From Candidatus Dormiibacterota bacterium (lineage in GTDB: Bacteria > Chloroflexota > Dormibacteria > Dormibacterales > Dormibacteraceae), in contig CATPBP010000019.1 in NCBI GenBank assembly GCA_955652675.1, positions 1 to 64,000 on the forward strand: a stretch of 64,000 nucleotides of DNA. The letters run 5' to 3'. The position numbers and the translations under genes were made by a program. Below, one piece after another: positions 17,203 through 62,117 of the stretch (its first letter is position 1; every line of letters begins with the position of its first letter). The notes below the pieces were generated by a model. The model made no database searches and had not been told where the DNA came from. It saw only the letters and a list, made by a program, of their open reading frames with translations.

Positions 17203-17559
17203 TCAGCGCAACGCCCAACCCGCTCTGGTGATCGCGGCGCGCAGTCGCGCATTCCCGGCGGCGTCCCGGCTCAGGTCCCTGAGAAGCCGGTCGACCCACT
17301 CCGGCGCGGGCGCCTCAGGGCCGAAGCGGAGACTCCCACCGCTCCTCGCCACCCGGTAATCGGTACCGGCCGCAAGGATCCGCACCTCCCGCGGCGGCGA
17401 CCGTCCGAGCAGGCCACGGCTGACGGACGCGCTGGGCAGCCTGTCGGCCAGGTAGTCGAGAAGGCCGCTGGGGTCAGGCTCTCCTGCGAGCGCCGAGCGG
17501 CAGAAAGCACAGGCCGCCTCGAGCGGCAGCGAAGGCGCCCCGCAGACCTCGCACTTCAA
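17203..17559 (-). CDS. Small zinc-ribbon protein
   Basis: 118 residues. The N-terminus MKCEVCGAPSLPLEAACAFC has two CxxC pairs spaced as a zinc ribbon. The rest is not recognised; it contains RILAAGTDYRVARSGGSLRF and a helical C-terminus. No membrane segment. It is the last gene of a three-gene operon: its start overlaps the D-aminopeptidase stop by 4 nt. Confidence 0.65.
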   Translation of the reverse strand: MKCEVCGAPSLPLEAACAFCRSALAGEPDPSGLLDYLADRLPSASVSRGLLGRSPPREVRILAAGTDYRVARSGGSLRFGPEAPAPEWVDRLLRDLSRDAAGNARLRAAITRAGWALR

Positions 17560-18383
17560 CTGGTGGCTGCCTGCGCCAGGTCGACCAGGGCCAGGAAGAG
17601 CTTGTAGATCTGGACGTAGTCTTCCCCGGCGTAGGCCACGCCCCTCGAGCCGATCCTGCGGACCCCAGGGATCCGTTCGCAGGAGTCCGCCATGGCGGTG
17701 CGGACGAAGTCCACCTCCAGCTCGACGGTGCCCTCCAGACGCATCGGGGGGATGTTGTCCAGCCGCTCTATGGCCCTGCGAGCCCCGGAGCGGATTCGCT
17801 GCCTAGCCAGCTCCGGGTGCAGGGAGCGCGCAGCCTGGTGGGCCAGCGACTCCTTGACGACCACTCCTTCGACCGTCAGGCAGAACTGGTGCATCTGGGA
17901 GACGGCGGCCGCGTCGCCGGTGAAGAGGGCGACAGGGCAGTCGAAGTAGCCGCAGAGGTATCCCGTCAAACTGCCCTCGCTCTGGGGTATGCCGCCCAGG
18001 CGGACCTCCTGCACCAGCCGGGGGTCGGCACCGCTGTGGTCGAGGACGGCGTCCCGGGTGCCGGACGAAGCGTGGTATCCGACGAAGTAGGCGGCGTCGA
18101 AGCCCGGTCCCATCCCTTCGCCCATGTAGAGGCGGCGGGGGTAGCCGCTCAGCAGCTCGGCCGCTGGGTGAAGCTCGTCCGGGAGCAGGTTGGTGCCAGA
18201 CCAGTGGCCGTCGCTCACGACGATCTCCTGAACGCCCGCCTCGAGGGCCCCCTCGATGGCGGCGTTGACCTCGAGCGTCATCAGCCGCCGGAAGAGGGGA
18301 TAGTCGCGGCCGGCGGGATCGGTCTGCTCGTCGCGGACCACGCCCGCCACTCCCTCCATGTCGGCGGAGACGAAGACTCTCAA
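17556..18383 (-). CDS. M55 family D-aminopeptidase (DppA-like)
   Basis: 275 residues. The start MRVFVSADMEGVAGV is the hallmark of M55 zinc peptidases (SxDxEGxxG, with Asp and Glu as metal ligands); VSDGHWSGTNLL, FVGYHASSGT and VLDHSGAD follow in the expected order. The family cleaves short D-amino-acid peptides, as Bacillus DppA does, so a role in D-Ala-peptide or cell-wall peptide recycling is likely. TTG start (18381-18383), 7 nt after the preceding small gene. No oligopeptide transporter is nearby. Confidence 0.87.
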   Translation of the reverse strand: MRVFVSADMEGVAGVVRDEQTDPAGRDYPLFRRLMTLEVNAAIEGALEAGVQEIVVSDGHWSGTNLLPDELHPAAELLSGYPRRLYMGEGMGPGFDAAYFVGYHASSGTRDAVLDHSGADPRLVQEVRLGGIPQSEGSLTGYLCGYFDCPVALFTGDAAAVSQMHQFCLTVEGVVVKESLAHQAARSLHPELARQRIRSGARRAIERLDNIPPMRLEGTVELEVDFVRTAMADSCERIPGVRRIGSRGVAYAGEDYVQIYKLFLALVDLAQAATS

Positions 18384-18390
18384 GGAGCGA

Positions 18391-18606
18391 TCAATCGGTG
18401 TAGCGCTGGATCAGCCCGTCTTCGCGCCGCTTCTCCTCCTGGTAGAGGGGGCAGTCCTCGAAGTCGCGGACGCAGATCGGCGGCGATTCCCGCAGCGCCA
18501 GCTTCACCTTTGACTTGTGGTCGACGTGACAGTCGAAGTGATACACGCGGAGCGGTCCACGCCGTTCCTTGTAGAGCTGTTCCAGATAAGGGCAGCGACG
18601 CACCAC
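18391..18606 (-). CDS. Cysteine-containing 71-aa protein
   Basis: Four cysteines (CPYLE near residue 5, DCHVDHKSK, ICVRDF, DCPLY) suggest one bound zinc or Fe-S cluster; the spacing is too wide for a standard zinc ribbon. It opens the operon with the M55 peptidase and zinc-ribbon genes. The GTG start is only 14 bp from the divergent ligase start, with TAACTT (18613-18618 reverse) 6 nt upstream. I do not recognise the family. Confidence 0.6.
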   Translation of the reverse strand: MVRRCPYLEQLYKERRGPLRVYHFDCHVDHKSKVKLALRESPPICVRDFEDCPLYQEEKRREDGLIQRYTD

Positions 18607-18620
18607 TACGATAAGTTACC
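18607..18620. promoter_or_regulatory. 14-bp divergent promoter with two overlapping -10 hexamers
   Basis: The whole gap between two GTG starts is TACGATAAGTTACC. On plus, TACGAT (18607-18612) lies 8 nt before the ligase GTG. On minus, TAACTT (reverse of 18613-18618) lies 6 nt before the small gene's GTG. Any -35 contacts must fall inside the opposite gene. Confidence 0.5.
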
Positions 18621-20282
18621 GTGCTCGACTTCGCCCGGACGGCGGAGGCGATCGGAGCCACCTCTTCCACCCTCGAGAAGAGCCGCCTGCTCGCCGACTA
18701 CCTGCGCCGCCTTCCACCAGACGACCTGCGCCGCGCAGCAATTTACATGAGCGGCCAGCCCTACGGGCGCGCCGAGCGGCGAACCCTGAACCTGGGCTGG
18801 GCGGCCATCGGCAAAGTCGTGGGCCGCCTCTCCAGACGGCCGCCGGAGGAGCTCAACGGCCTCTTCCTGAAGCACTCGGATCTGGGGGACTGGACCTTCG
18901 ACGCCCTCAGCGAAGCGACCCATCCAGCGGCCACCTCGATGGCCGAGGTCGCCGCCGCCCTGGAGGAGATCCGGACGGCTCGGACGGCAGCCGCCAAGCA
19001 GCAGCTCCTGGAGGCGCTGCTAGACCGGCTCGACCCGCTGGCCGCCAAGTACGTGGTCAAGGTGCTGAGCTTCGAGCTCCGGATCGGTCTCCAGGAGGGC
19101 CTGGTCGAAGCAGCCCTCGCCTCCGCCTTCGAGGTCCCCCTGGCGACGGTGCGCCGGATCCACATGCTGACCGGCGACATCGGCGAGACGGCCGTCCGGT
19201 GCCGGGCCGGGGAGCTGGCCGATACCCGGATCACGCTCTTCCAACCCATCCGCTTCATGCTCGCCACGGCGGTGGAGACGCCAGAGGAGGCGTTCCAGCG
19301 GATGCAAACCGAGGTCGTCTGGACCGAGGAGAAGTACGACGGCGTCCGCTGCCAGCTGCACAGCTCGGGGGGCCGCTGCGAGCTGTTCAGCCGGGAGCTG
19401 AAAGAGACGAGCGAGGCGTTCCCCGAGATCGTGGAGGCCGGCCTCGGGCTCATCCACGAAGTCCTGCTGGACGGAGAGGTGCTGGCCCACGACGGGACCC
19501 AGGTGCTTCCCTTTTTCGAGCTCCAGCGGCGGCTGGGCCGCAAGGTGGTGTCCAGCGCACTGCGAGCCGAGGTGCCGCTGGTATTCGTCGCGTTCGACCT
19601 GCTCTACCTGGACGGTGATGTGGTCATGGACCGTCCGCTGGAGGAGCGGCGGCGGCTGATGGAGGAGCTGGGCATGAAGCCGCCCTTCCTGCTGGCGAGG
19701 CTGGAGACCGCCCGCGATCCCGAGCACCTGGACCGCATCTTCGCGGAAACGCGCGACAGGGGGAACGAGGGATTGATGGTGAAGGACCCGCACAGCCCCT
19801 ACAGCCCGGGCCGGCGGGGCATGTCGTGGCTGAAGCTCAAGCGCCCGCTGGCAACGCTGGACGTGGTCGTCACCGCCGTCGAGTGGGGTCACGGGAAGCG
19901 TCGGGGGGTGCTCTCCGACTACACCTTCGCGGTTCGGGAGGCGGAGACAGGGCAGCTGCTGAACGTCGGGAAGGCGTACACCGGGCTGACGGACGCCGAG
20001 ATCGCGACGATGACGGAGTTTTTCCTCGCCAACACGGTCGCCGACTACGGCAGGAGCCGTCTGGTCGAGCCGAACACCGTGATCGAGGTCGCCTTCGACT
20101 CCATACAGCGATCCGCCCGCCACCGCAGCGGATTCGCCCTGCGCTTCCCACGCATCGTCAGACTGCGGGAGGACAAGCCGGTCGCCGAGATCGATACCCT
20201 GGCCCGGGTGCGTGAGCTCCACGAGAGGTACTTCGCCCGGCTGATCCCCCTGGCCCAGGTCGCCGAGGTCTCCGAAGAGTGA
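18621..20282 (+). CDS. ATP-dependent DNA ligase
   Basis: 553 residues. Seals nicks in duplex DNA using ATP. An N-terminal DNA-binding domain (about 1-205) of the archaeal/eukaryotic type I class precedes the nucleotidyltransferase core, with motif I EEKYDGVRCQLH (adenylated Lys238), motif III (FVAFDLLYLDG), motif IV (NEGLMVKD) and motif V (WLKLKRP). A C-terminal OB domain follows. This is the long LigB/LigC-like form, not the LigD polymerase fusion. The next gene, an MBL hydrolase, overlaps the stop by 4 nt. An MBL exonuclease gene lies 2.5 kb upstream. Confidence 0.92.
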   Translation: MLDFARTAEAIGATSSTLEKSRLLADYLRRLPPDDLRRAAIYMSGQPYGRAERRTLNLGWAAIGKVVGRLSRRPPEELNGLFLKHSDLGDWTFDALSEATHPAATSMAEVAAALEEIRTARTAAAKQQLLEALLDRLDPLAAKYVVKVLSFELRIGLQEGLVEAALASAFEVPLATVRRIHMLTGDIGETAVRCRAGELADTRITLFQPIRFMLATAVETPEEAFQRMQTEVVWTEEKYDGVRCQLHSSGGRCELFSRELKETSEAFPEIVEAGLGLIHEVLLDGEVLAHDGTQVLPFFELQRRLGRKVVSSALRAEVPLVFVAFDLLYLDGDVVMDRPLEERRRLMEELGMKPPFLLARLETARDPEHLDRIFAETRDRGNEGLMVKDPHSPYSPGRRGMSWLKLKRPLATLDVVVTAVEWGHGKRRGVLSDYTFAVREAETGQLLNVGKAYTGLTDAEIATMTEFFLANTVADYGRSRLVEPNTVIEVAFDSIQRSARHRSGFALRFPRIVRLREDKPVAEIDTLARVRELHERYFARLIPLAQVAEVSEE

Positions 20283-21028
20283 AGCTGACGTTCATGGGGA
20301 CCGCCGGCGCCCGCTTCATGGTGGCCAAGCAGCTTGCGGCGTCCGGAGGGCTCTACCTGGAGCTTGGCTCTACGCGCCTCGCCATGGACCCGGGACCGGG
20401 AGCCGTGGTCCAGTACGCCAAGCGGAAGGTGGACCTGAGCCGGCTCGACGGGATCCTGGTCAGCCACCGCCACCTCGATCACTGCGGCGACGTCAACGTG
20501 GTCATCGAGGCGATGACCGAGGGCGGCTTCCGGCCTCGGGGCACGCTCTTCTGCCCCTCGGACGCGCTCGACGAAGACCCGGTCGTGCTCAAGTACCTCC
20601 GGCACTTCCCCGAAGAGGTCGTCCGCCTGCAGCCGGAGAGCCCGTACCAGCTGAAGGAGATCAGCTTCCGGACCACCCGCCGCCACATCCACGGGGTCGA
20701 GACCTACGGTTTCCGGTTCGGAGACGGGGACATCCCGAACCTCGGGTGGGTGACCGACTCCAAGTACTACGACGGGATCGCCGAGGATCATCGCGCCCAG
20801 GTGATGCTCATCCACACCGTTCTTGCTCAGAGCCGGCCCGACCTACCGCACCTGGGCCTGGACGACGCCGAGCGCATTATCGCCGAGGCGCAGCCGAGGC
20901 TTGCCGTCATCACGCACTTCGGGATGGGCGTCTGGCGGGCCCACCCCTGGGAGGTGGCGGCCCAGCTCAGCGAGCGAACCGGGATCGAGGTCAAGGCTGC
21001 GCGAGACGGGATGTCGCTCGAGGTTTGA
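20279..21028 (+). CDS. MBL-fold metallo-hydrolase
   Basis: 249 residues. The metal site VSHRHLDHCGD (about residue 60) and later THFGMGVWRAHPW are clear. The opening LTFMGTAGARFMVAKQ and GGLYLELG are typical of the RNase Z/phosphodiesterase-like branch. It could be a tRNA 3' nuclease relative or a cyclic-nucleotide/phospho-diester hydrolase; substrate not known. The 4-nt GTGA overlap with the ligase gene suggests a joint role. Confidence 0.8.
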   Translation: MKLTFMGTAGARFMVAKQLAASGGLYLELGSTRLAMDPGPGAVVQYAKRKVDLSRLDGILVSHRHLDHCGDVNVVIEAMTEGGFRPRGTLFCPSDALDEDPVVLKYLRHFPEEVVRLQPESPYQLKEISFRTTRRHIHGVETYGFRFGDGDIPNLGWVTDSKYYDGIAEDHRAQVMLIHTVLAQSRPDLPHLGLDDAERIIAEAQPRLAVITHFGMGVWRAHPWEVAAQLSERTGIEVKAARDGMSLEV

Positions 21029-62107: not shown

Positions 62108-62117
62108 CTAAGCTTAG
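62108..62117. promoter_or_regulatory. Palindromic bidirectional -10 element CTAAGCTTAG
   Basis: TAAGCT on plus (62109-62114) lies 11 nt before the birA ATG 62126; TAAGCT on minus (62116-62111) lies 8 nt before ATG 62102. One palindrome can thus serve as -10 for both genes in a 23-bp gap. Confidence 0.5.

Follow-up and report, generated by a model that had tools for sequence, protein, structure and literature searches.

A putative bidirectional leaderless promoter between divergent DNA ligase and small cysteine-protein genes in a Dormibacterota family

Gene arrangement at the locus

In the window (the whole 64-kb stretch of DNA analyzed here), the 14-bp gap TACGATAAGTTACC (18607–18620) separates the GTG start codon of an ATP-dependent DNA ligase gene (18621, plus strand) from that of a gene encoding a small protein (18606, minus strand), just where an earlier note on this DNA had placed it. 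Genes and gap features are listed in Table 1. Gene starts are the output of a simple ORF caller; neither ORF can be extended upstream past the gap, because both frames have stops within it (TAA at 18612–18614 in the ligase frame and TAA at 18618–18616 in the small-gene frame). The initial Met of small-protein orthologs (MRRCP) aligns with a second in-frame GTG at 18603, not with the one at 18606, so judging from this alignment the true start of the small gene may be at 18603.

Table 1. Genes and candidate promoter elements in and around the gap (positions in the window).
Feature	Position	Strand	Remarks
Cys-motif (zinc-ribbon-like) protein	17203–17559	−	Third gene of minus operon; usual neighbor of small gene
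D-aminopeptidase DppA (Peptidase_M55)	17556–18383	−	Second gene of minus operon; lineage-specific insertion
Small protein, 71 residues, four invariant Cys	18391–18606	−	Start GTG 18606 or GTG 18603
Conserved symmetric core TACGATA (TAnnnTA)	18607–18613	both	Putative shared −10; TANNNT on either strand
−10 hexamer TACGAT, predicted ligase promoter	18607–18612	+	8 nt before GTG 18621
Putative ancestral minus −10 TATCGT	18608–18613	−	Overlaps TACGAT by 5 bp
Second overlapping TAnnnTA, TAAGTTA	18612–18618	both	Overlaps TACGATA
−10 hexamer TAACTT, likely derived minus promoter	18613–18618	−	No counterpart in orthologs
ATP-dependent DNA ligase	18621–20282	+	N, middle and C Pfam ligase domains; GTG start
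Metallo-beta-lactamase-fold protein	20279–21028	+	Overlaps ligase stop

The small protein belongs to a family found across the class, with four invariant cysteines and an invariant DCHVD motif. It has no match in Pfam, NCBIfam, or PDB, and its AlphaFold model is weak (mean pLDDT 63.8). The earlier note spoke of a D-aminopeptidase operon, which fits the window but not the family: in most loci searched the small gene is followed directly by the zinc-ribbon-like gene, and among these loci dppA lies between the two only in the window and in one other (L002). On the ligase side, the metallo-beta-lactamase-fold gene is presumably co-transcribed with ligase, and the overlap of its GTG with the ligase stop codon (20279–20282) suggests translational coupling of the two. 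At one related locus (L016, genome G012) ligase is absent, and the metallo-beta-lactamase-fold gene, which normally comes after ligase, is itself the head-to-head neighbor of the small gene.

Candidate promoter elements in the gap

Two hexamers of TANNNT form abut at 18612/18613, TACGAT reading toward ligase and TAACTT toward the small gene. The latter (18618–18613) lies 6 nt upstream of GTG 18606 and 9 nt upstream of GTG 18603. Both had been picked out in the earlier note, which took them for a pair of leaderless −10 elements packed into one small gap; the genome-wide signal and family conservation described below lend support to leaderless −10s here, as far as sequence comparison can. The note had overlooked the second minus-strand hexamer TATCGT (18613–18608), along with the conservation of the core across the family and the alternative start at 18603. 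The pattern TAnnnTA is its own reverse complement, so that TACGATA gives TACGAT on the plus strand and TATCGT on the minus strand. Since such a pattern is TANNNT on both strands, one −10 can in principle serve two leaderless genes. In TACGATA, here and in the orthologs, positions −11A and −7T of the two directions pair reciprocally. TAnnnTA is found just three times in the 64 kb, two of them being TACGATA and the overlapping TAAGTTA of the gap.

No −35 element was visible on either strand, with the best match to TTGACA at 15–19 bp spacing being three of six bases on the plus strand and two of six on the minus strand. Any −35 contacts would thus be to non-consensus sequence and, as had been expected, within coding sequence. 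Hexamers of this kind are short and degenerate, and they could be the chance product of an AT-rich gap, with the real promoters elsewhere. This is highly improbable, given that from 18481 to 18740 neither strand has a TANNNT except in the gap or at its edge, and that the core is deeply conserved in orthologous loci.

Leaderless signal across the lineage

A TA-like leaderless signal was described by Zheng et al. (2011; PMC3160421), and a comparable leaderless −10 motif has been described for Deinococcus (PMC12340547). Such TANNNT promoters lie about 12 bp upstream of the start codon, need no −35, and in high-GC genomes have a weakly informative interior (PMC3160421, PMC12340547). For an overview of this lineage, 954 first ATG or GTG starts were collected with a simple ORF caller from 1.26 Mb of sequence in four genomes. 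TANNNT was found 6, 7, 8, and 9 nt before the start 55, 28, 21, and 34 times, respectively, against a background further upstream of about 3.2 per position. This gives 138 of the 954 genes with a hexamer at 6–9 nt, an enrichment of roughly tenfold, with peaks at 6 and 9 nt; a spacing of 4 nt is barely above background (6 vs. 3.2). Among the 138 hexamer-bearing genes no −35 or extended −10 was visible and the upstream base profile was featureless. TAAGCT is the commonest hexamer in the sample, and TACGAT is among the commonest. From these counts it is plausible that leaderless transcription occurs in the Dormibacterota lineage and that −10 elements just before start codons are a genome-wide habit. 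The 8-nt spacing of TACGAT from the ligase start falls within the 6–9 nt range, as do both spacings of TAACTT from the possible small-gene starts.

The gap resembles the published leaderless promoters in the position of its hexamers, their weak interior, and the absence of a −35. It differs in that two such promoters share one site between ligase and the small gene; a term search of PMC3160421 and PMC12340547 found no mention of divergent sharing in either.

Conservation of the core in relatives

The Dormibacterota family is uncultured and known from MAGs. The small gene was found in 75 of 101 relatives searched, and it is head to head with ligase in 55 fetched loci. Several of these came from the same genomes and were collapsed by sequence identity around the core, leaving 34 distinct loci once identical ones were removed. 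TACGATA is present in every one except for a single TACCATA. The flanking sequence is more variable, with 0.05–1.4 bits in most columns against 2.0 bits (1.81 at one) in the columns of the core. The small-gene start is 7–8 nt from TATCGT in 31 of the 34. Spacing compatible with leaderless transcription is found on both sides in 17; in 15, ligase starts 10–45 nt from the core and is not compatible. Predicted leaderless initiation on both sides is consequently not universal among the orthologs, and the promoter core varies less than the way in which translation begins. In four loci (L017, L029, L032, and L037) the ligase ATG is 45 nt from the core and an out-of-frame TTG is 8 nt from it, a leaderless distance; these loci might have a short leader ORF that overlaps the start of ligase.

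Two genomes of genus g13 provide a natural control. Their small gene no longer has ligase as its neighbor, the symmetric core has been lost or disrupted, and TAAGCT lies 9–10 nt before the small gene. In another genome (G007), a second ligase copy (L057), 70% identical to that in the window, is divergent from a zinc-ribbon-like gene, and the gap between them has a different symmetric core, TAAAGTA, with TAAAGT at 6 nt on the plus strand and TACTTT at 9 nt on the minus strand. Among the class-level loci fetched, pairing of the small gene with ligase was found only in family f1, with no ligase match beside the small gene in families f2 and f3.

What differs in the window

Between the small-gene start and TACGATA, the relatives carry CGCGACT or a similar sequence; the window has only CAC there, a shortening by 4 bp. 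With these bases lost on the side of the small gene, TATCGT is 4 nt from GTG 18603 and 1 nt from GTG 18606, too close to the start. On the ligase side, the GGTCACC of relatives has become AGTTACC, which creates TAACTT 5 bp further back than TATCGT. It is probable, on the sequence evidence, that TAACTT now serves the minus direction in this genome. The case comes from a single genome and is mainly one of spacing; from the background rate, the chance of a TANNNT at usable spacing there is about 0.02–0.03.

Another reading is that TACGATA still drives transcription both ways, with TAACTT a chance occurrence and GTG 18603 the minus start. The core is intact in the window, and with 18603 and 18621 as start sites the two directions would be separated by 18 bp, the distance seen most often in bidirectional promoters (PMC12825309). 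The minus spacing of 4 nt would be unusually short, one that hardly rises above background genome-wide, unlike the peaks at 6 and 9 nt, and this reading is on the whole unlikely. With TAACTT as the minus element, the probable active pair, TACGAT and TAACTT, is abutting and lacks reciprocal −11A/−7T pairing.

A putative bidirectional leaderless promoter

Overall, we consider it likely (roughly 85% probability), from the arrangement and conservation of the sequence, that the gap is a bidirectional leaderless promoter, with an ancestral shared −10 and, in the window, two abutting ones. Ancestrally, a single symmetric −10, TACGATA, would have been read as TACGAT toward ligase and as TATCGT toward the small gene. 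Each transcript would begin at or close to its own start codon with no −35 element, and RNA polymerase would enter in either orientation, never in both at once. In the window genome the 4-bp loss would have left TATCGT too close, with the nearby TAACTT taking over the minus direction, so that the active −10s would abut instead of overlapping. The earlier description of the gap as two promoters may thus suit the window variant; for its relatives a single symmetric −10 used both ways is the better description.

Promoters of this general type are known. According to PMC12825309 and PMC10268837, the bidirectional promoters of Warman et al. (2021) have a symmetric −10 in which −11A and −7T pair reciprocally, and divergent start sites 7–25 bp apart that are subject to steric exclusion. 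The ancestral core resembles them in its symmetric −10, reciprocal −11A/−7T, and expected steric exclusion. The start spacing predicted from the start codons, 15 bp (18606/18621) or 18 bp (18603/18621), is within their range. Unlike them, both predicted transcripts are leaderless mRNAs in many of the orthologs, the whole intergenic gap being promoter, and the probable active −10s of the window abut where theirs overlap.

The earlier note had further argued that two polymerases could not occupy the gap together, which would be consistent, by analogy, with the published steric exclusion (PMC12825309), and from this that expression of ligase should exclude that of the small-gene operon, and vice versa. 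The second step does not follow from the anatomy. The −10s share sequence or abut within 12 bp, so two polymerases would not be expected to bind together, and competition does emerge in E. coli bidirectional promoters when one direction is strongly activated; at basal activity, the five examined were all too weak to compete, with one RNA having no effect on the other (PMC12825309). No site for an activator or other regulator was identified at this locus, although without a systematic search, and exclusive expression through polymerase competition seems quite unlikely.

Other divergent pairs in the family

Divergent gene pairs were sampled in 1.66 Mb of genomes from the family, giving 297 pairs, of which 77 are close. 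TANNNT at 6–9 nt in both directions was found in 12 of the 77, whereas 100 shuffles gave 0.33 on average and never more than 2; the hexamer pair first noticed in the gap is thus of a kind well above chance. The relative offset of the two hexamers among the close cases is mostly +1 (TAnnnTA, eight cases) or −4 (AnnnTAnnnT, two cases), the dominant geometries of close pairs, with +6 only in the window. At 6-nt spacing, offsets of +1 and −4 would correspond to distances of 18 and 23 bp between start sites, both of them among the three spacings common in bidirectional promoters (PMC12825309), and the family's TAnnnTA pairs typically have 18–21 bp between start codons, within the 7–25 bp range of Warman and colleagues. 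The hexamer is directly followed by A in 31% of divergent leaderless genes vs. 9% of tandem ones (Fisher p = 2e-5, an optimistic value as both genes of one shared promoter are counted).

Two other divergent pairs were followed through the family. Between aldolase and amidohydrolase genes, TAGATTA, TAGAGTA, or TACAGTA is found in 27 of 30 loci, and between birA and a gene for a 62-residue protein, TAGCTTA in 25 of 30. These bear on whether TACGATA might not be a core promoter but an operator through which a regulator, such as one of a DNA-damage response, controls both genes. Its CGA interior is nearly invariant, more conserved than a bare TAnnnTA requires, and the shared neighbor is a DNA ligase. 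The other divergent pairs have the same TAnnnTA geometry with different interiors, however, which favors a core promoter over one operator, and TACGAT itself ranks with the most frequent leaderless hexamers of the sample, so an operator is very unlikely. A search for a regulon of the exact site CTACGATAG gave 4 matches in the 4.2-Mb genome vs. 10 for a reversed control, and such a regulon was accordingly rejected.

With a core promoter as the preferred reading, a broader possibility can be put forward tentatively: that 7 bp of TAnnnTA, with an interior particular to each pair, are the whole conserved regulatory region between the leaderless pairs of this family, that sharing one −10 obligately couples the divergent genes, and that in the window such a promoter is seen dividing, after an indel, into two −10s that abut. 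The arrangement is not special to this locus, which on sequence grounds is a well-conserved example of a promoter type already known. Its interest lies in being a culture-free comparative case, in which symmetric two-way −10s appear to be under selection family-wide, at several loci, and not to be promoter noise. With leaderless genes and a symmetric −10, start sites should be predictable to the base, so competition between directions becomes a simple question of point mutations, and the window genome would illustrate how, in nature, one shared promoter can drift into a pair of neighboring ones.

Elsewhere in the window, a palindromic TAAGCTTA (62109–62116) lies between a likely minus-strand gene (ATG 62102) and birA (ATG 62126). 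Either strand of it gives TAAGCT, which lies 8 nt upstream of the minus-strand ATG and 11 nt upstream of that of birA.
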